The notes below the pieces were generated by a model. That model did no database searches. It was not told where the DNA came from and was given only the letters and a program-made list of their open reading frames with translations. From Agromyces allii (GTDB lineage Bacteria > Actinomycetota > Actinomycetes > Actinomycetales > Microbacteriaceae): DNA of 64,000 nucleotides. The stretch lies in NCBI RefSeq assembly GCF_009749385.1, contig NZ_WBIN01000003.1, forward strand, positions 124,001 through 188,000. Direction: 5' to 3'. Below, piece by piece: positions 28,844-39,707 of the stretch (position 1 is its first letter; every line of letters starts with the position of its first letter). The position numbers were made by a program, and so were the translations under genes.

Positions 28844-30265
28844 TCAGAGCGCCCGCAAGATGTCCTCGACGCGGTCCTTCGCGTCGCCGAAGAGCATCTG
28901 CGTGTTGTCGCGGGTGAACAGGGGGTTCGCGACGCCCGCGTAGCCGGCGGCCATCGAGCGCTTGAACACGATCACGTCGGAGGCCTCCCAGACGCGCAGC
29001 ACGGGCATGCCGGCGATCGGGCTGCCGGGATCTTCGGCCGCGGCGGGGTTCACGGTGTCGTTCGCGCCGATCACGAGCACGACGGAGGTGCCGGCGAAGT
29101 CGTCGTTGATCTCGTCCATCTCCTCGACGACGTCGTACGGCACCTTCGCCTCGGCGAGGAGCACGTTCATGTGTCCGGGGAGGCGGCCGGCGACGGGGTG
29201 GATGCCGAAGCGCACGTCCACGCCGCGTTCGCGGAGCTTCGCGGTGAGGTCGGCGACGGGGTGCTGCGCCTGGGCGACGGCCATGCCGTAGCCGGGCGTG
29301 ATGATCACGCTGGTCGCGTCGCGAAGCAGCGCGGCGGCATCCGTCGCCGTGATCTCGTGGATCTCGCCCTGCACCTCGCCCGAGGAGGTGGGCGCGGCGA
29401 TGCCGAACCCGCCGGCGATGACCGAGATGAACGACCGGTTCATGGCCTTGCACATGATGTACGAGAGGTAGGCACCCGAGGAGCCGACGAGCGCGCCGGT
29501 CACGATGAGCAGGTCGTTGTTCAGCAGGAAGCCGGCCGCCGCCGCCGCCCAGCCCGAGTAGCTGTTCAGCATCGAGATGACGACGGGCATGTCTCCGCCG
29601 CCGATGGACGCGACGAGGTGCCAGCCGAGCGCCAGCGCGAGCGCGGTGACGACGACGAGCAGCCACAGTTCGGGCGTGATGACGTACCAGACGGTGAGCG
29701 CGACGAACGCGACGAGCGCGCCGAGGTTCAGCGCGTTCTTCCCGGGCAGCATGAGCGGTGCCGACTTCATGCGCGCCGACAGCTTGAGGAACGCGACGAT
29801 CGAGCCGGTGAAGGTGACGGCGCCGATGAAGACGCCGATGAAGACCTCGGCGTGGTGGATGTCGAGCAGGGCGCCGCTGAGTCCGGATGTCTCGAGCGCG
29901 CCGTTCCAGCCGACGAGCACGGCTGCGAGGCCGACGAAGCTGTGCAGCAGCGCGATGAGCTCCGGCATGCCGGTCATCTCGACGACCCGGGCGCGCCAGA
30001 GTCCGATCGCGCCGCCGATGACGACGGCGGCCGCGAGCAGGCTCAGGCCGAGCGTCGCCTGCGGCGACCCCCAGGCATCCGACACGACGACGCCGACGGT
30101 GGCGACGAGGGCGATGGCCATGCCGGCGATGCCGTAGCCGACACCGGCCTTGGCGGTTTCATGCCGGCTGAGCCCCGCGAGGCTCAGGATGAACAGCAGC
30201 GCGGCGACGATGTAGGCGGCTCCGGCGATGGAGGCGGGGGTCAGGAGTGCGGTGGTTTCGGGCAC
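28844..30265 (-). CDS. pntB: NAD(P) transhydrogenase subunit beta
   Basis: The 473-residue protein has about nine N-terminal membrane helices (domain II) and a C-terminal NADP(H)-binding domain III with [16 protein letters not shown] and [14 protein letters not shown]. With PntA it couples hydride transfer between NADH and NADP+ to proton movement across the cytoplasmic membrane. It starts 35 nt after pntA. Length and motifs are standard. Confidence 0.97.
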
Positions 30266-30300
30266 GGTGGGGGCTCCTCGGCGAGTTCAGCGCGTCGCGG

Positions 30301-31917
30301 TCAGTGGCTGCGGCGGTCAGCCGAGGCGTTCGGTCCGGCGTCGGGTCCGGCAGATGCCGGTGCCGGTCCTCGCGAGAACATCGCGAGCATGCGTCTGGTC
30401 ACGGCGAAACCGCCGAAGATGTTGATCGCCGCGAGCAGCACCGCGACCGCGGCGAGCACCTGCACCACCGGCTCGGAACTCGTGATCTGCACCATCGCGC
30501 CGACGATGATGATGCCCGAGATGGCGTTCGTCACGCTCATGAGGGGCGTGTGCAGCGCGTGCGCGACCTTGCCGATCACGTAGAAGCCGACGACGACCGA
30601 CAGCACGAGCACGGTGAAGTGCTGGGGGAGCGGGGCCGGAGCGATCGCATTGACCGCGAACAGGGCCGCGATGCCCAGCGCGACGAGCAACACCTTCTTG
30701 ACCGGTGTCATGGGTTTGCGCGCGGGCTTGGCGGGCGCGGCCGACGCATCCGGCGCGCCTGCGCCCGCGGATGCCGCGGCGGGAGCCGCCGACACCTGCA
30801 CGGGCGGGGGCGGCCAGGTGACCGCACCGGGCTGGGCGACGGTGACCGAGCGCTGCACGACGTCGTCGAAGTCGAGCACGAGCTTTCCGTCCTTGCCCGG
30901 CGTGAGGAGCTTGAGCAGGTTCACGACGTTCGTGCCGTAGAGCTGCGAGGCCTGCGTGGGCAGGCGCGAGGCGAGATCCGTGTAGCCGAGGATCACGACC
31001 CCGTTCGGCGTGACGATGCGCTCGCCCGCGACCGAGCCCGCGACGTTGCCGCCCTGTCCCGCCGCCATGTCGACGATGACGCTGCCCGAGCGCATGCTCG
31101 CGACATCCGCCGCCGTGATGAGCTTGGGCGCCGGGCGGCCCGGGATCAGTGCGGTCGTGATGATGATGTCGACGTCGGCCGCCTGCTCCGAGTAGATCTC
31201 GGCGGCACGGCGGTCGTAGTCCTCGCTCGTGGCCTTCGCGTAGCCGTCGGTGGACTGCATCTGCTCGGCGACCTCGACCGCGAGGTACGAGCCGCCGATC
31301 GACTTCACCTGGTCGGCGACCTCTGGCCGCGGGTCGGTGGCCCGCACGATCGCCCCGAGGCTGGAGGCCGCGCCGATCGCCGCGAGCCCGGCGACGCCCG
31401 CGCCGGCGACGAGCACCTTGGCCGGCGGAACCTTGCCCGCGGCCGTGACCTGCCCGGTGAAGAAGCGTCCGAACTCGTGCGCGGCTTCGATGACCGCCCG
31501 GTAGCCCGAGATGTTCGACATCGAGCTCAACACGTCCATCGACTGGGCGCGCGAGATGCGCGGAACGGCGTCCATGGCGAGCGCGGTCACGCCGCGATCG
31601 GCGAGCGCCTGCAGCAGTTCGGGCTTGAACGCGGGCGCGAGGAGGCCGATGAGCGTGGCATCGGGGGAGAGCGCCGCGATGTCGGCATCGGTCGGTGCGT
31701 TGACCATGAGCACGACCGCGCTGCCGAGCGCTGTGGCCCGGTCGGTGATCTCGGCGCCCGCCTCGACGTAGGCGGCGTCGGGGAACGCCGAACGCGCTCC
31801 AGCGCCCGCCTCGACGGCGACCTCGTACCCGAGGGCGACGAGCTGATTCACCGTCGCGGGCGTCGCGGCGACGCGCGACTCGGGGCTGTGCTCGGTCACG
31901 ATCCCGATGCGGGACAT
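30301..31917 (-). CDS. pntA: NAD(P) transhydrogenase subunit alpha (fused domain I and membrane part)
   Basis: The 538-residue protein has the alanine dehydrogenase-like NAD(H) domain I (about 1-380, with VLVAGAGVAGLAAIGAA). An Ala/Pro-rich linker follows, then a C-terminal membrane domain of four helices (about 420-530). It is thus the single-chain E. coli-type alpha, not the split PntAA/PntAB. GGAGCACCC precedes the ATG; a TATGGT element at 32028-32023 may be the promoter. It heads the pntAB operon. Confidence 0.97.
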   Translation of the reverse strand: MSRIGIVTEHSPESRVAATPATVNQLVALGYEVAVEAGAGARSAFPDAAYVEAGAEITDRATALGSAVVLMVNAPTDADIAALSPDATLIGLLAPAFKPELLQALADRGVTALAMDAVPRISRAQSMDVLSSMSNISGYRAVIEAAHEFGRFFTGQVTAAGKVPPAKVLVAGAGVAGLAAIGAASSLGAIVRATDPRPEVADQVKSIGGSYLAVEVAEQMQSTDGYAKATSEDYDRRAAEIYSEQAADVDIIITTALIPGRPAPKLITAADVASMRSGSVIVDMAAGQGGNVAGSVAGERIVTPNGVVILGYTDLASRLPTQASQLYGTNVVNLLKLLTPGKDGKLVLDFDDVVQRSVTVAQPGAVTWPPPPVQVSAAPAAASAGAGAPDASAAPAKPARKPMTPVKKVLLVALGIAALFAVNAIAPAPLPQHFTVLVLSVVVGFYVIGKVAHALHTPLMSVTNAISGIIIVGAMVQITSSEPVVQVLAAVAVLLAAINIFGGFAVTRRMLAMFSRGPAPASAGPDAGPNASADRRSH

Positions 31918-32224
31918 GGGTGCTCCTTCACGTCGAGGCGCCCGCGGGTGCGGCGCTGCGGCTTGGACGGCCGGCGCCTCGGGTGCACGAAGGTGCGGTG
32001 CGGCGACGGTGCTGCGAGCACCACCATAGGCGCTGTTCGGCCCAGCAGGCAGCACCTTCAGATGCGTTCCGCGGATGCCGGTGGCGGCCGTTCGGGTGGT
32101 CGTGCTCGGGGATCAGCGTAGGGGCCGTCGTCGGCCCCTACGCCGATGTTTCGTCACGCTGATCGTGAAGGATCCGCGATTCTTTCACCCAGCAGAAATG
32201 CCGGGACGCTCGCGGGCGCTCCGG
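31918..32224 (-). other. 307-bp gene-free region upstream of pntAB
   Basis: No gene is supported here. It contains the possible pntAB promoter (TATGGT, 32028-32023), a GCGGATGCCGG word at 32073, and a strong hairpin at 32116-32143 that probably ends the oleate hydratase transcript. Confidence 0.6.
32116..32143 (-). terminator. Perfect 12-bp hairpin downstream of oleate hydratase
   Basis: GCGTAGGGGCCG and CGGCCCCTACGC pair perfectly around a 4-nt loop, about 80 nt after the oleate hydratase stop and about 200 nt before pntA. There is no T tract. It is likely a terminator for the upstream gene. Confidence 0.6.
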
Positions 32225-34033: not shown

Positions 34034-34204
34034 GCATCTCCCCCCGGATCGTCGCACTGCGACGGCGCGCAGCACCGTCTTCAACGCTATCGAGCGGATG
34101 CCGCGGGCGCACGTGCCCGGTCGTGCACGTGTGTGCGTGTTCACCTTCCGGTCGTGTGCGGGCCCTCCTCCTGTCGGGGCGACGGCTCGCATTCCGTCCG
34201 GTAA

Positions 34205-34219
34205 GTTCGGATATCGAAC
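34205..34219. promoter_or_regulatory. IclR-type operator candidate
   Basis: GTTCG-GATAT-CGAAC is a perfect 5-5-5 inverted repeat, ending 19 nt before the IclR start codon and in the intergenic region divergent from oleate hydratase. The same half-sites with a 5-nt spacer recur upstream of the aromatic monooxygenase. The layout resembles operators of IclR-family aromatic regulators such as PcaU and PobR. Confidence 0.55.
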
Positions 34220-34238
34220 GCGGAGGCAAGGGGGCAGC

Positions 34239-34952
34239 ATGGCGGCAGAGGGCACGAGCGGCGCCGGATCGCAGACGCTGAGCCGCGGCATCCGGCTGCT
34301 CGAACTGCTCGCCGATGCCGACCGCAACCTCTCCATCGACGAGCTCGCCGCACAGCTGGGCGTGCACCGCTCGGTCGCCTACCGGCTGCTGCGCACGCTC
34401 GAGGACCACGGCCTCGTCGCACGCGACAGCGCCGGCCGCATCACGCTCGGCACCGGGCTCGCCGCCCTCGCCTCGGGGGTCGCGCGCGACCTGCAGCAGG
34501 TCGCCCTGCCTGAGCTCAGCGAGGTCGCGAACGAGCTCGGCATGACCTGCCTCCTCGCGGTGCAGGTCGACGCCGACGAGGCCGCGACGCTCGTGAGCGC
34601 GGCACCCCGCCAGAGCATGGCGGTCGTGTCGTACCGCCCGGGACACCGGCATCCGCTCACCCGGGGAGGCCCCGGCAAGGCGATCCTGCTGTCGCTGCCC
34701 GAGGCCTCATGGGCGGATGCCGCGACGTCGGCGTTGCGCGCCGAGATCGCCGAGAGCCGCGAACGCGGGTACGCCGTGAGCCACGACGAGGTCGTGCCCT
34801 CGCTGCGGTCGGTCGCGGTGCCGCTGGTACTGCCCGGACAGCCCGCGGCGGCGATCGCGGTGATCCACGTGTCGTTCGCGCGCCCCGAGGCCGAGATCGC
34901 CGCGCGCCTCACCGCCGCCGCCGCGAGCGTGCGCCGCGCCTACGGCGCCTGA
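34239..34952 (+). CDS. IclR family transcriptional regulator
   Basis: The 237-residue protein has an N-terminal winged helix (SRGIRLLELLADADRNLSIDELAAQLGVHRSVAYRLLRTLEDHG). A C-terminal effector domain contains the family segment YRPGHRHPLTRGGPGKAIL. The ligand is unknown; family members respond to aromatic acids, glyoxylate, glycerol or sugars. A purine-rich GGAGGCAAGGGGG precedes the ATG. It is divergent from oleate hydratase and has an inverted repeat in its own promoter, suggesting autoregulation. Confidence 0.93.
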   Translation: MAAEGTSGAGSQTLSRGIRLLELLADADRNLSIDELAAQLGVHRSVAYRLLRTLEDHGLVARDSAGRITLGTGLAALASGVARDLQQVALPELSEVANELGMTCLLAVQVDADEAATLVSAAPRQSMAVVSYRPGHRHPLTRGGPGKAILLSLPEASWADAATSALRAEIAESRERGYAVSHDEVVPSLRSVAVPLVLPGQPAAAIAVIHVSFARPEAEIAARLTAAAASVRRAYGA

Positions 34953-35161
34953 CCGCGGCATCCGCTCGGCGAACAGGTCGATGGTCGCGGGCCAGGGGCG
35001 ACACCGCGATGGCGACGTGTCCGCGAGCGCCATGCCTGCTGGGACCGATGCCGCGAAGTAGGCGGGCGCAGCTCTCGGAATGCCGGCGGTTTCGGGCTCG
35101 ACGTCTCGATGCATGTTCTGGGCGCGTGAAAGGAACATGCGTGGTGCGACATTTCCAAGGT

Positions 35162-36319
35162 ATGCGAGTGAGGCGTTGGAGGTACGCAGGCGCGATTGCG
35201 GCCGTCTCGATACTCGTGCTGAGCGGCTGCTCGAATTCTCCGCCGCCCGCGAGTTCTTCTGCGACCACGGCCTCGGGTTGGGTTGCCCTCGATGATGTTC
35301 CGCTGACAGGCCGAGTGGGGCCGGCTGTCGTCTGGACCGGGACCGAGGTCATCGTCGCGGGCGGCGACACCGGCCCACCGTGTCCGCCGAACGCTGACTG
35401 CGTATCGAACCAGCAGGCACGCGATGGCGCCGCGCTCGACCCGGCGACCGGACGGTGGAGGCGCATATCCGACGCCCCGGTCGACATCCCGCCATACGCA
35501 TCGGCGGCGTATGCCGACGGCCGCGCGCTCATCCTCGCCTCGACAGGAGACGAACGCCGGCTCCTGAGTTACGACGTGGACACGGATCGATGGGACCGCA
35601 TCAACCTCCCCGACGACGCGCCACGAGCACTGGTGGGCGACGGAGACCGAGTCCTCCTGGCGTCGACATCGGACGAGCACGGCCGCTTCGCGGATTTCAT
35701 CCTGGATGTCGAGACCGGCGCGTGGTCGCAGCTTACCGCCGATCCGCTCGGCCAGATCTTCGATCGGGTACTCACACCCACGCCCGATGGACTGGTTCTG
35801 ACCGGCAAGCAGCTCGTCGAGGACCCCGGAGCTGATGGACCGGCGCTCACGATCGCCGCATGGCTCGATCGGCGATCGGGCAAGTGGTCACGACTCCCCG
35901 ACACGGAACAGATCGGGGGCTGGCGGTGGGCCTGGACCGGCACCCGCCTCGTCGATCCGACACTGGGCGGTGGTGATGGCGGCGAAGTCGGGAGCTGGGA
36001 CCGCTCGTACCCGTACGGAGGCGCGATCTCGGTGCCCGACGGACAGTGGTCGCCATTGCCGGAGCCACCCTCACCACGACAGGATCACTGGCTCACCGAT
36101 ACGGCCGGTGGACGGTTCTCGTTCAGTGGCGGCTATGTCTACGACGATCGGCGATCGTCGTGGACTCCGATCGACCGCCCGGACCATGCGCCCCAGCACG
36201 CCGATGCCGCCGTCTGGGCCGACGATCGACTCGTCGTCGTCGGCGGCACCGACTGGAACGACGCAGGGGGCACCATCAGCAGCCAGACCTGGATATTCGA
36301 CCCCGAACCGAGCAGATGA
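35162..36319 (+). CDS. Lipoprotein with Kelch-like beta-propeller
   Basis: The 385-residue product has a lipoprotein signal with Cys23 (LVLSGCSN). Repeating blade-like units follow, in which a conserved Trp precedes a short loop (TGRWRRIS, DRWDRINLP, GAWSQL, GKWSRLP, GQWSPLP) and glycine pairs (VIVAGGD, LVVVGGT) mark strands. This fits a Kelch/galactose-oxidase-like propeller exposed on the cell surface. Its GC content and codon use look somewhat less extreme than its neighbours. The ATG has CCAAGGT upstream. The ligand is unknown. Confidence 0.75.
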   Translation: MRVRRWRYAGAIAAVSILVLSGCSNSPPPASSSATTASGWVALDDVPLTGRVGPAVVWTGTEVIVAGGDTGPPCPPNADCVSNQQARDGAALDPATGRWRRISDAPVDIPPYASAAYADGRALILASTGDERRLLSYDVDTDRWDRINLPDDAPRALVGDGDRVLLASTSDEHGRFADFILDVETGAWSQLTADPLGQIFDRVLTPTPDGLVLTGKQLVEDPGADGPALTIAAWLDRRSGKWSRLPDTEQIGGWRWAWTGTRLVDPTLGGGDGGEVGSWDRSYPYGGAISVPDGQWSPLPEPPSPRQDHWLTDTAGGRFSFSGGYVYDDRRSSWTPIDRPDHAPQHADAAVWADDRLVVVGGTDWNDAGGTISSQTWIFDPEPSR

Positions 36320-36405
36320 GGAGCCCGATCGCGCCCGCGCGGTGAGCTTCCCGGCTCAACTGACCGAATCGGGCACCCGCCCGCGATGCTCGGTAGCTTG
36401 CTCGT

Positions 36406-36525
36406 ATGGAATCCTCTTCGCCGGCGTCATCGGCGTCCTCTGCGCTTGCGACCATTGGCCACACGGCTGCAGCACCCGAGTCCCTTGTGGAACTCGGGCG
36501 TCATCGACAGAACGGTCCCCGATGA
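36406..36525 (+). CDS. Possible 39-residue small protein, leaderless
   Basis: A short reading frame (MESSSPASSASSALATIGHT...) begins 6 nt after TAGCTT, the same leaderless layout seen elsewhere in the window. It ends with TGA overlapping the ATG of the next gene by 4 nt. Both signals argue for translation. The composition (Ser/Ala-rich) gives no function, and the coding evidence is only positional. Confidence 0.35.
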   Translation: MESSSPASSASSALATIGHTAAAPESLVELGRHRQNGPR

Positions 36526-36827
36526 GAATCGACCTCGAACGAATCGACATCCACGCCGCAGACCACTACGGGAGGAAGCGGAGTATCGAGGTCGACGAAC
36601 GGATGCTGCTTTCCGAGCTCGTTGAAACGGTCTGCGGTCCGTTCCTGCCCGAGCTCGACTGGGCCACCTGGACCATCCGAGCCGAGCGCTCCGGCACCTA
36701 CGGGGACATCGCCCGGACCGGCGGCCGAGACGAGCCCCCGCACCTGCTCATCCAGGACGCATCACTCCTCGAAGTGACGAACGGCGCGCCGGAGTTGCGC
36801 ATCTTTTGTCTCCTCACCGAGGGCTGA
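36522..36827 (+). CDS. Hypothetical 101-residue protein
   Basis: The acidic soluble protein (MRIDLERIDIHAADHYGRKRSI...) has Asp/Glu-rich N-terminal strands and a pattern suggesting an alpha/beta fold; no membrane segment or signal is present. No Shine-Dalgarno is evident, but the start overlaps the stop of a 39-residue leaderless frame, which may deliver ribosomes by coupling. The family is not recognised. Confidence 0.6.
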   Translation: MRIDLERIDIHAADHYGRKRSIEVDERMLLSELVETVCGPFLPELDWATWTIRAERSGTYGDIARTGGRDEPPHLLIQDASLLEVTNGAPELRIFCLLTEG

Positions 36828-36885
36828 CTGCACGCCGACCGATCGGTGATCACCACAGGCGCTCGGCATCGAGGACAATGAGCAG

Positions 36886-37164
36886 ATGCCCCGTCGCCTC
36901 CCCACTGAACGCCAAGCTTGGGGCGCGGGCCTCATCGTCGCCGGAATCGGGGTGCTGCTCTGGCTCGGCTGCCTCTTCATGATGGTCCGCGTCGGCTGGG
37001 ACCTCTCGATGGAGGTCGGCTCCGGCGGCGGCGGGCGCAACGGGGGCGTACGGGTGCCGGCCGGCGTGGCGCTGGCGATCCTCGGCCTGCTGGGGCTGGG
37101 GTGCGTCGCGCTCGGCGGCCTCGTCACGCGGAACGCGCTCCGAGACATCCGCGACGAAAGCTGA
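36886..37164 (+). CDS. Small two-helix membrane protein
   Basis: The 92-residue product has two hydrophobic helices (AGLIVAGIGVLLWLGCLFMM and VALAILGLLGLGCVALGGLV) separated by a Gly-rich loop, with a basic start and an Arg/Asp tail. GACAAT lies 6 nt before the ATG and may be a weak -10 for a leaderless mRNA. No family is recognised. Confidence 0.65.
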   Translation: MPRRLPTERQAWGAGLIVAGIGVLLWLGCLFMMVRVGWDLSMEVGSGGGGRNGGVRVPAGVALAILGLLGLGCVALGGLVTRNALRDIRDES

Positions 37165-37205
37165 GTGACCAGACCTGCGCCCGTGGTGCCGCCGGATCGG
37201 CGACG

Positions 37206-37472
37206 CTACGCGGCGGGTTCGTGCTGTTCCGCCTGCTTCCGTGCCGACCGCCTGAGCGCGGCGCCGACGACGATCGCGACAGCGCCGAACATGATCCAGA
37301 TCAGGCCGACGGTCACCGGGAGGGCCGCCTCTGAAGGGGTCAACCCGTTCGGCAGCGCACCGATCAGCATCACCACCGCCAGAACGAGCCCGAATGCCGT
37401 GAGCGTCAGCCCGATCGTGGTGAGGTAGGTCGGCGCCTTCGAGGGGTGTGAGGGAGCACTCGGCTTGGGCAT
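37206..37472 (-). CDS. Small two-helix membrane protein
   Basis: The 88-residue product (from MPKPSAPSHPSK) has two hydrophobic helices (TTIGLTLTAFGLVLAVVMLIG and VTVGLIWIMFGAVAIVVGAAL) and a basic C-terminus. The start was moved in from a longer frame because this ATG gives the normal short cytoplasmic N-terminus. It converges on the preceding small membrane gene. Function is unknown. Confidence 0.65.
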   Translation of the reverse strand: MPKPSAPSHPSKAPTYLTTIGLTLTAFGLVLAVVMLIGALPNGLTPSEAALPVTVGLIWIMFGAVAIVVGAALRRSARKQAEQHEPAA

Positions 37473-37536
37473 GCTTGAAACTGTAGCCAGAGATTGCCGC
37501 GACGACACGCTCCGGCCTCGAACCGATGCCGACCGC

Positions 37537-39501
37537 TCAGCGCGCCAGCAGCGCCCCCTTGAAGAACTCGGCGAGCTCCGCTGTCGCCGAGAGCGGCAGC
37601 ACCTGCGCGACGTAGTGGTCGGGGCGCACGACGACGACCACGCCGTCGCGTGAGAGGCCGCGCTCCTCGAAGATGTCGTGCTCGGGGTCGGCCCCGTAGA
37701 CCTTCTCGTAGTCGGTGAGGCCGAACGGCCCGGTCGCGGGCCGGAACACCGCGGGCGCCTGCATGAGGTCCACCGCTCCGTGCGGCTGCTGGTAGACGAC
37801 CTTCACGTCGAACACGTCGTCGAAGCTGCCGCCGTCGGGCACGTGCACGGCCAAGGGCGAGTCGGATGCCTCGGCGAGCCAGTTCGCCCACGATGCCAGC
37901 GCCGAGTCATCCGCCCGTGAGATCGCGCCGTCGGCGAAGGCGTAGATGCGCCACCGGCCGTCGGCTCGATGGTGGTGCCCGAGGTGCACGGGATTGCCGT
38001 CGCACACGCGCGAGACGGGCGCCGACTTGAAGCGCTTGCCGACGGGGAACCCGGTCGCGAGCTCCTGGTGCTGCTGCGAGCCGACGATCATCGAGGGCTC
38101 GTACTGCGTCATGAACCCGGCCGGGAACTCGAAGGTGCGCACGTAGAAGTCCTCGAGCTCGGCCGGGTCGCCGAGGTCTTCGGGCTTGGTCGCCATGAGC
38201 TTCGACCATTCGCGGTCGAAGTCGATGAGCTCCTTCGCGACCACGTGCCGCTCGGCGTGGTAGGTCTCGAGCAGGGCGGCGTCGGCTCGGCCGTCGAGCA
38301 CGTGGCCGAGCTTCCAGCCGATGTTCCAGCCGTCCTGCATCGAGACGTTCATGCCCTGGCCGGCCTTGGCGCTGTGCGTGTGGCAGGCGTCGCCCGTTAT
38401 GAACACGCGCGGCGTGCGGGTGCCCTGTTCGTCGAGGGGCACGTCGTCGAAGCGGTCGGTGACGCGGTGACCGACCTCGTAGACCGAGTGCCACGGCACG
38501 TTGCGCACGTCGAGCGAGTACGGGTGCAGGATGTCGTTCGCCTTCGCGATGACCTGCTCGAGCGTCGTCTGGCGCACGGCGCCGTGATCGTCTGCGGCGA
38601 CCTCGCCGAGGTCGACGTACATGCGGAACAGCTGGCCGCCCTCGCGCGGGATGAGCAGGATGTTGCCCGCCTCCGACTGGATCGAGCACTTGGTGCGGAT
38701 GTCGGGGAAGTCGGTGACCGCGAGCGTGTCCATGACCCCCCACGCGTGGAACGACTGCGCGCCCACGTGCTGTGCGCCGATCGCCTCGCGCACCTTGCTG
38801 CGCGCGCCGTCGGCACCGATGACGTACTTGGCGCGCACGATGCGGCGCTCACCCGTGAGCTCGCCGTCGAGGGCGACCGCATGCGAGGCGTCGCCCGCCC
38901 CGACCCCCACGCCCGTGGCGCGCTCGAGGGTGACGGTCACGGGGTACTCGGGCAGCGAACCCGGCTCGCCGTCGGCGCCGGGCTGCGCGACCTCGAGCGC
39001 CACGAACTCCCACCCGTAGTCGGGCACGACACGGCCGGGGGAGTTGTGCGCGTACTCGGCGAAGTAGTCGAGCACGCGCGCCTGGTTCACGATCAGGTGC
39101 GGGAACTCGCTGATGCCCGTCGGGTCGTCGGGCGTGACGGCCGCGCGGTGGATGTTCGCGCGGTTCTCGGGGTCGGGCTTCCAGAACGCCATCTCGGTGA
39201 TGCGGTACGCCTCGGCGATGATGCGCTCGGCGAACCCGAAGGCCTGGAACGTCTCGACGCTGCGCGCCTGGATGCCGTCGGCCTGCCCGATCGCGAGCCG
39301 ACCTCCGCGCCGCTCCACGATGCGGGTCGAGACGCCGGGGAACTGCGCGAGCTGCGCCGCGGCGACCATGCCGGCCGGGCCCGAGCCGACGATGAGCACG
39401 TCGACCTCGTCGGGCAGCTCCTCGGGGCGGTCGAGCCCGATGCCTGCCGCCGGCTCGATGCGCGGGTCTCCGGACACGTAGCCGTGGTGGTGGAACTGCA
39501 C
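37537..39501 (-). CDS. FAD-dependent aromatic-ring monooxygenase (phenol 2-monooxygenase / 3-hydroxybenzoate 4-monooxygenase type)
   Basis: The 654-residue enzyme has the FAD motif VGSGPAGMVAAA near residue 38 and the GD motif GDACHTHSAKAGQGMN. A C-terminal thioredoxin-like dimerisation domain of about 180 residues is seen in PhyA/MobA-type hydroxylases. These add oxygen to phenol, 3-hydroxybenzoate or resorcinol using NADPH. The GTG start has GGAGAG upstream. The gene stands alone; ring-cleavage genes are not in the window. Its promoter carries an IclR-type inverted repeat. Confidence 0.9.
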   Translation of the reverse strand: MQFHHHGYVSGDPRIEPAAGIGLDRPEELPDEVDVLIVGSGPAGMVAAAQLAQFPGVSTRIVERRGGRLAIGQADGIQARSVETFQAFGFAERIIAEAYRITEMAFWKPDPENRANIHRAAVTPDDPTGISEFPHLIVNQARVLDYFAEYAHNSPGRVVPDYGWEFVALEVAQPGADGEPGSLPEYPVTVTLERATGVGVGAGDASHAVALDGELTGERRIVRAKYVIGADGARSKVREAIGAQHVGAQSFHAWGVMDTLAVTDFPDIRTKCSIQSEAGNILLIPREGGQLFRMYVDLGEVAADDHGAVRQTTLEQVIAKANDILHPYSLDVRNVPWHSVYEVGHRVTDRFDDVPLDEQGTRTPRVFITGDACHTHSAKAGQGMNVSMQDGWNIGWKLGHVLDGRADAALLETYHAERHVVAKELIDFDREWSKLMATKPEDLGDPAELEDFYVRTFEFPAGFMTQYEPSMIVGSQQHQELATGFPVGKRFKSAPVSRVCDGNPVHLGHHHRADGRWRIYAFADGAISRADDSALASWANWLAEASDSPLAVHVPDGGSFDDVFDVKVVYQQPHGAVDLMQAPAVFRPATGPFGLTDYEKVYGADPEHDIFEERGLSRDGVVVVVRPDHYVAQVLPLSATAELAEFFKGALLAR

Positions 39502-39544
39502 GGGCTCTCCTCACGTCGTCGTGGTGGGTGTATGCGATCCCCTT

Positions 39545-39565
39545 CGTGTTCGATAAACGAACACG
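39545..39565. promoter_or_regulatory. IclR-type operator candidate before the monooxygenase
   Basis: CGTGTTCG and CGAACACG form a perfect 8-bp inverted repeat with spacer ATAAA, about 45 nt upstream of the monooxygenase GTG, in a locally AT-rich patch. The core GTTCG-N5-CGAAC is the same as in the promoter of the IclR gene at 34239. Confidence 0.65.
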
Positions 39566-39707
39566 TAATTCTCATATCGCTCAGCCAGTGTAGGTCGCGG
39601 GCGCGACGACGACAAGCGGATGCCGCAGCACGGCGACCTGGTCGGGGTCACCCGCTCGCGACATCCGCTCGCTCGGGGCTCTCGAAGGCTCGGGCCTCAG
39701 CCGGCGC

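Follow-up and report, generated by a model that had tools for sequence, protein, structure and literature searches.

The 64,000-nucleotide stretch of Agromyces allii DNA analysed here (the window) carries a gene for an IclR-family regulator, iclR, and convergent with it a gene for a flavin adenine dinucleotide (FAD) monooxygenase; upstream of each lies an inverted repeat of the form GTTCG-N5-CGAAC. We propose that the two dyads are operators of the IclR protein, which would repress the monooxygenase from a tandem site, limit its own synthesis and so govern the entry of a hydroxyphenylacetate into homoprotocatechuate breakdown. The features concerned are the following.

34185 to 34199, plus strand: candidate weak partner box of iclR, GCTCGCATTCCGTCC, its centre exactly 20 nucleotides from that of the main box
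34205 to 34219, plus strand: predicted main operator box of iclR, GTTCGGATATCGAAC, about 20 bases 5' of the ATG; second-best match to the scoring matrix in the window
34239 to 34952, plus strand: iclR, IclR-family regulator of 237 amino acids with Pfam domains HTH_IclR and IclR_C above cut-off
34953 to 37536, no strand: interval between iclR and the monooxygenase gene, about 2.6 kb in this genome
37537 to 39501, minus strand: FAD monooxygenase of 654 amino acids, MobA / phenol 2-monooxygenase family; proposed hydroxyphenylacetate hydroxylase
39548 to 39562, minus strand: predicted main operator box of the monooxygenase, GTTCGTTTATCGAAC, best matrix match in the window; extended arms at 39545-39565
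39568 to 39582, minus strand: predicted second operator box of the monooxygenase, GAGCGATATGAGAAT, its centre exactly 20 nucleotides from that of the main box
39587 to 39592, minus strand: predicted -10 element, TACACT, a conserved TANNNT before the first box
39610 to 39615, minus strand: predicted -35 element, TTGTCG, with a 17-nucleotide spacer to the -10

The iclR product exceeds the cut-offs of HTH_IclR (56.8 versus 22 bits) and IclR_C (43.5 versus 24 bits) and does not reach that of TIGR02431, the model for PcaR, PcaU and PobR (71.6 versus 284.75 bits). The monooxygenase exceeds the cut-off of NCBIfam PRK08294. Its nearest solved structure is the 3-hydroxybenzoate hydroxylase MobA (PDB 2dkh; 636 bits, E 6e-190), an enzyme of Comamonas testosteroni, followed by a phenol hydroxylase at 360 bits.

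Read letter for letter, positions 34205-34219 are GTTCGGATATCGAAC and positions 39545-39565 are CGTGTTCGATAAACGAACACG, with the same half-sites and 5-nucleotide spacer, exactly as an earlier look at this DNA (the original prediction) had reported. They are the only exact copies of GTTCGN5CGAAC in the window. Relaxing the pattern to one mismatch gives 5 matches where chance predicts 4.81, so that by itself the loose form is no evidence. In the genome as a whole (4.36 Mb in 23 contigs) the exact pattern occurs 14 times. The 12 copies outside the window have 2 to 5 G or C among the five spacer positions (1 and 0 in the iclR and monooxygenase sites) and matrix scores of -11.8 to 13.7, compared with 16.6 and 26.0 for the window sites; the copy scoring 13.7, at C17:122956 (G, L and C numbers are our labels for genomes, loci and contigs), is without a partner at 20 nucleotides. 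All 12 fall within a G+C-biased reading frame according to a crude open reading frame call, which is a rough guide only, since it assigned a spurious frame to the iclR promoter site as well. The matrix was built from 88 main monooxygenase boxes of relatives, with the A. allii genome and its two nearest relatives excluded, and over all window positions it ranks the monooxygenase dyad first and the iclR dyad second.

The two genes travel together. Among 59 same-genus relatives both are present in 50 and neither in 9, without exception, when one genome (G047) is counted as having the monooxygenase though its match is partial with an internal stop. The pairs are convergent neighbours in 43 relatives, with a gap of at most 250 bases in 34 of these, divergent in three (G044, G045, G059) and apart in four (G012, G036, G050 and G014, the last an assembly in 840 contigs). 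The monooxygenase, which the original prediction had regarded as distant, is thus the adjoining convergent gene of iclR in 43 of the 50. Its suggestion that the gene divergent from iclR, an oleate hydratase, might share the control found no support: of 159 loci searched, just four (L114, L115, L157, L160) contain the hydratase, and it is missing from the fetched 20-kb locus of G026, whose iclR box is identical to that of the window. We therefore rejected it as a conserved target, and a local side effect on it is conceivable. The interval between the two genes holds a lipoprotein-like reading frame, mainly at about 35138-36319, perhaps of kelch type, which is a guess by eye only. Upstream of iclR lie the pntAB transhydrogenase genes (28844-32055), kept nearby in 32 to 34 clustered loci. 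In G047 (locus L185, Agromyces) the monooxygenase gene seems broken, with an internal TGA in the partial match, and the operator is kept.

Allowing up to one mismatch, the consensus GTTCGATWATCGAAC occurs at 41 places in 35 same-genus genomes (A. allii included), of which 34 are directly upstream of the monooxygenase, 5 upstream of iclR and 2 elsewhere. For a wider comparison we scanned the 200 bases upstream of genes in 154 fetched loci that carry at least one of the two genes, after removal of four duplicates. In loci that carry both, a box with three mismatches or fewer precedes 65 of the 70 monooxygenase genes and 59 of the 70 iclR genes; it precedes all nine iclR genes that have no monooxygenase on their locus, and only 15 of 2065 other upstream regions. 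Loci with a monooxygenase and no iclR nearby number 75, and the box is present in 35 and absent from 40 of them. This split allowed a test in trans. For 13 of the 35 box-bearing loci we searched the rest of the genome, and all 13 genomes encode the IclR protein elsewhere, at 47-62% identity, as against 3 of 22 control genomes with a match at E 1e-25 (51%, 42% and 35% identity); the controls were 21 of the 40 box-less loci together with L246, whose only box has three mismatches. The pairing in 59 of 59 relatives, the 39 of 41 sites upstream of either gene and the result in trans (13/13 versus 3/22) bear out the earlier proposal, and control of the monooxygenase by the IclR protein is very probable.

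The operator at the monooxygenase is double, which the original prediction missed. In the matrix scan GAGCGATATGAGAAT is the second-best match in the A. allii monooxygenase promoter, with a score of 2.3 compared with -17.7 for the next best. Among 105 monooxygenase upstream regions with a main box of at most four mismatches, 101 have their second-best box at exactly 20 nucleotides, as do 56 of 72 such iclR regions; partner boxes were not selected when the matrix was built. Successive half-sites, four in all, thereby recur every 10 nucleotides, or roughly once per turn of the helix, a spacing that would suit two dimers, or a tetramer, sitting along a single side of the DNA. Of 100 monooxygenase upstream regions, 90 have a TANNNT hexamer beginning 7-14 nucleotides ahead of the first box, as against 2 of 398 control stretches further upstream, and 77 of these 90 also have a TTG at a spacer of 16-19 nucleotides. 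These elements place the predicted transcription start near 39580, with both boxes at or downstream of it. In bacterial promoters an operator over the start and leader favours repression, and activators rarely bind there; the position of the boxes therefore favours repression.

At iclR the picture is less uniform. Boxes identical to GTTCGGATATCGAAC stand before iclR in G026 and G008, several relatives have a tandem box such as GTTCGGATTCCGTGC at the place of GCTCGCATTCCGTCC, and GTTCGGATATCGAAC with GCTCGCATTCCGTCC forms the second-best 20-nucleotide tandem in the window. The suggested autoregulation is less firmly supported than control of the monooxygenase: boxes at 59 of 70 iclR genes versus 15 of 2065 control regions speak for it, but 8 of 13 iclR genes located in trans have none. 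Autoregulation by IclR is probable on these comparisons. Several relatives show variations of their own. Six Cryobacterium loci (L274-L279) have no boxes upstream of iclR, while the monooxygenase promoters elsewhere in the same genomes keep them; here autoregulation is lost or sited elsewhere. In L118, L126, L127, L157 and L162 the iclR box holds a TATAAT- or TAGTAT-like -10 about 7 bases 5' of the ATG, so that transcripts would be leaderless; the window's iclR box has no such hexamer. Three Pseudarthrobacter loci (L223, L263, L265) have degenerate monooxygenase boxes with 3-5 mismatches, and the iclR upstream regions of the latter two carry GTTCGATAATCGCAT and GTTCGATAATCGCAA, which are nearer to the PcaR operator of Pseudomonas putida.

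A number of observations weigh against this picture of the regulation. Two sites in the genus, in G039 and G057, are at neither gene: that in G039 (C1:846431) coincides with a reading-frame end and has no 20-nucleotide partner, and that in G057 is in a genome without a match to iclR or the monooxygenase. Outside the genus five genomes have one GTTCGATWATCGAAC place each, and G111 alone has it before a monooxygenase; the other four genomes (G072, G076, G087, G119) have no monooxygenase or iclR match. Five of the 70 monooxygenase upstream regions reach the consensus only with 4-5 mismatches (L151, L153, L255, L263, L265), and Arthrobacter sp. MYb23, which has the IclR protein (51%) and a monooxygenase without a box, is a real exception. 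Because the genomes are related and hence not independent, the Fisher values that we computed overstate the significance, and IclR identity within the genus falls from 98% to 53%, so that some of the proteins may not be strict orthologues. For autoregulation, GCTCGCATTCCGTCC is weak: 1.25% of window positions score equally high, and a place 66 nucleotides away outscores it. Of 30 iclR loci (A. allii included), those of only two relatives repeat the exact 15-mer of the window's iclR box, and 11 of the 70 iclR upstream regions have no box within three mismatches or too little sequence. The iclR genes in trans divide into 5 of 13 with a box of at most three mismatches upstream and 8 without (six from Cryobacterium, one from Plantibacter and one from Arthrobacter).

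The likely pathway emerges from genes elsewhere in the genome. A. allii encodes HpaD at C18:121973-122860, on a different contig from the monooxygenase, in a homoprotocatechuate cluster (hpa) with a thiamine-diphosphate enzyme, HpaH, an HpaI-type aldolase, a reading frame combining fumarylacetoacetate hydrolase and RraA parts, a GntR-FCD regulator and two aldehyde dehydrogenases. In 37 same-genus genomes, A. allii included, HpaD is above cut-off in 30 and absent from 7, and this is exactly the distribution of iclR and the monooxygenase in the same genomes. HpaB (PF03241) has no match in the A. allii genome and is present in only 1 of the 37, which makes the monooxygenase the best candidate seen for making homoprotocatechuate. 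In other genera the neighbours of the monooxygenase include HpaD, HpaE, HpaH, HpaI-like and HpaG-like proteins, a major facilitator superfamily transporter and a thiamine-diphosphate enzyme; the cut-off is exceeded by the representatives for HpaD, HpaE and HpaH and not by that for HpaI. Genes of hpaD type are no more than 7 kb away in 26 of the 154 loci, genera without the operator included. Where iclR is located in trans, it is found inside or adjacent to the hpa cluster in Plantibacter, Zhihengliuella and six genomes of Cryobacterium. Taken together these data suggest that the substrate is probably a hydroxyphenylacetate, feeding homoprotocatechuate cleavage.

The cluster itself appears to lie outside the reach of this IclR protein in the Agromyces regions fetched. 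None of these 20 hpa regions has boxes at the threshold used, and none were found in the cluster of A. allii, which suggests that there IclR controls only the entry enzyme and itself; as the A. allii cluster also has its own GntR-type gene, we rejected it as a direct target. An iclR gene preceded by tandem boxes adjoins the hpa genes in G012, G036 and G050 and shares its strand with several of these, so that in these three genomes the boxes could serve iclR and hpa genes alike. Ortho cleavage of protocatechuate as the downstream route was likewise set aside as not favoured: the genome has a single, partial match to the intradiol dioxygenase family PF00775 (above the cut-off at 33.2 versus 27.3 bits, over 73 of 182 positions), extradiol cleavage of protocatechuate not having been searched for. 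In the cluster (L326:8200-18560, on C18), the best solved relatives of the adjoining thiamine-diphosphate enzyme are acetolactate synthases, and at a guess it may be the 4-hydroxyphenylpyruvate decarboxylase of tyrosine breakdown. The frame at L326:13321-15705 joins an HpaG-like fumarylacetoacetate hydrolase to an RraA-like aldolase domain, and NCBIfam PRK12764 matches a relative across both parts.

In the mechanism that we propose, the IclR protein (34239-34952) would bind both dyads as operators. At the monooxygenase promoter the two boxes immediately follow TTGTCG-N17-TACACT and would reach from roughly the transcription start to roughly +33, where two IclR dimers or a tetramer may block RNA polymerase until an aromatic acid or its metabolite lifts the block. 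On the strong box before its own start codon, and possibly on the weak second one, IclR would limit its own synthesis. The monooxygenase would hydroxylate a hydroxyphenylacetate to homoprotocatechuate, to be degraded by the hpa meta-cleavage cluster on the other contig with its own GntR-type gene. The starting points, read directly from the genomes, are the conserved sites, the 20-nucleotide tandem before the monooxygenase, the paired genes, the co-occurrence with hpaD and the lack of an HpaB match. From these we infer binding, repression, inducer and substrate. We give this joint reading (IclR operators, tandem repression, autoregulation and the route from hydroxyphenylacetate to homoprotocatechuate) a probability of about 0.78.

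The substrate is where a different account can be given. With the same regulator and operators, the enzyme may be a true 3-hydroxybenzoate 4-hydroxylase like MobA, in which case protocatechuate would be the relevant compound and the link to hpa genes a matter of co-inheritance in versatile degraders. The best solved relative is indeed MobA (636 bits as against 360 for phenol hydroxylase), and all four 2dkh residues Asp75, His135, Lys247 and Tyr271 are identical in the aligned monooxygenase, which counts against our choice of substrate. In MobA, according to the extract of PMC3546652 at hand, Asp75 and Tyr271 contact the substrate while His135 and Lys247 anchor its carboxylate; their retention indicates that the substrate is probably an aromatic acid instead of phenol. 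The operator, moreover, equals that of the protocatechuate regulators PcaU and PcaR in the portion of PMC8222616 consulted. A MobA-type role is nevertheless hard to reconcile with the lone partial intradiol dioxygenase match, with an hpaD that is present in 30 of 37 same-genus genomes and absent from the same seven, with hpaD-type genes within 7 kb in 26 of 154 loci, and with a genome in which no HpaB match was found to perform the step otherwise. A possible parallel is Arthrobacter Rue61a, which, in the excerpted text of PMC3534580, grows on 4-hydroxyphenylacetate, homoprotocatechuate and tyrosine and not on 3-hydroxybenzoate. On balance we regard the MobA-type role as possible and rather unlikely. 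The original prediction of a phenol or hydroxybenzoate hydroxylase thus holds in so far as the protein resembles 3-hydroxybenzoate hydroxylase, but the hpa context and the missing HpaB point to hydroxyphenylacetate.

Other explanations concern the regulator. PcaU and PobR are activators, and members of the IclR family are capable of both modes, so that with an operator of PcaU-type sequence IclR might activate here; boxes that lie downstream of the predicted -10 and run across the start into the leader make this improbable. Chance resemblance of the two dyads could be argued from the one-mismatch pattern, which is at chance level in the window, and from the 14 exact copies in the genome, yet the same two promoters are conserved in relatives with a fixed partner at 20 nucleotides. 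This conservation already disfavours chance for the monooxygenase site, and for the pair we consider it barely credible. Binding by another IclR paralogue would fit a motif type that, in the available part of PMC8222616, is common to many IclR regulators, and first-look candidate counts suggest several IclR-like genes per genome. The pairing of the genes, their matched presence and absence, the boxes at iclR itself and the test in trans all single out the neighbour, and a paralogue seems very unlikely. Repression by the neighbouring IclR protein of a hydroxyphenylacetate hydroxylase remains our preferred reading.

From a metabolic point of view, the set of regulator, operator and target extends from Agromyces to Amycolatopsis. 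We lean slightly towards the view that many Actinobacteria use a MobA-like, single-protein flavin hydroxylase in place of HpaBC as the entry step for tyrosine and hydroxyphenylacetate on the homoprotocatechuate route, with a dedicated IclR repressor and a PcaU-like tandem operator, apart from the hpa ring-cleavage genes. Regulator, operator and target can all be put to the test, and the monooxygenase gene becomes a candidate for the hydroxylation by which Gram-positive bacteria break down tyrosine via homoprotocatechuate, a route on which work is cited in the section of PMC3534580 seen. A near-PcaU operator beside an IclR protein outside the PcaR/PcaU/PobR model also means that the operator alone is no basis for assigning a substrate. 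The names 'phenol 2-monooxygenase' and '3-hydroxybenzoate hydroxylase' may mislead for such proteins.

Among the literature matches listed, none describes an IclR-monooxygenase pair for homoprotocatechuate or hydroxyphenylacetate hydroxylation in Actinobacteria, and GTTCGATTATCGAAC was not found in the literature searched. The Rhodococcus ruber genome paper, in the part available (PMC6498646), reports a homoprotocatechuate pathway with a 4-hydroxyphenylacetate 3-monooxygenase and makes no mention there of such a pair. The step proposed for the monooxygenase is that of HpaBC, which feeds HpaD (extract of PMC3053370); HpaBC differs in being a two-component 4-hydroxyphenylacetate 3-hydroxylase (extract of PMC10816480), and HpaB was not found in the A. 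allii genome. MobA is a full-length homologue with four identical substrate-pocket residues, whereas the monooxygenase described here is found with hpa meta-cleavage genes. GenR of Corynebacterium glutamicum (3-hydroxybenzoate/gentisate) is, like the present protein, an actinobacterial IclR regulator of a related aromatic pathway, but its operator, given in the consulted part of PMC8222616 as ATTCC-N7(5)-GGAAT, is not matched by the conserved GTTCGATWATCGAAC boxes. PcaU of Acinetobacter baylyi and PcaR of P. putida come closer, sharing the IclR fold, an aromatic pathway and an operator core (TTTGTTCGATWATCGMACAMA for PcaU and GTTCGATAATCGCAC for PcaR in the extracts of PMC8222616 and PMC12455658) comparable to GTTCGATWATCGAAC. 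Exact GTTCGATWATCGAAC, present at the monooxygenase of several relatives, conforms to the PcaR/PcaU/PobR operator pattern GTTCGATWATCGMAC, and in A. allii the monooxygenase site has one mismatch and the iclR site two. The PcaU-like layout suggested earlier is correct for the operator, but the protein falls below TIGR02431 (71.6 versus 284.75 bits). PcaU and PcaR also regulate the use of protocatechuate or 4-hydroxybenzoate, whereas the target here is a class A hydroxylase linked to homoprotocatechuate, with two palindromes 20 nucleotides apart over the predicted start. The motif is already published as the IclR group 1 type: Suvorova and Gelfand (2021; PMC8222616), in the text accessible, give GTNCG-N5-6-CGNAC for this group and, for both motif groups together, tandem sites with centres 18-22 nucleotides apart in 94 orthologous groups. 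The system described here resembles IclR group 1 with tandem sites in both motif type and 20-nucleotide tandem, the latter weak at iclR and clear at the monooxygenase of the window.

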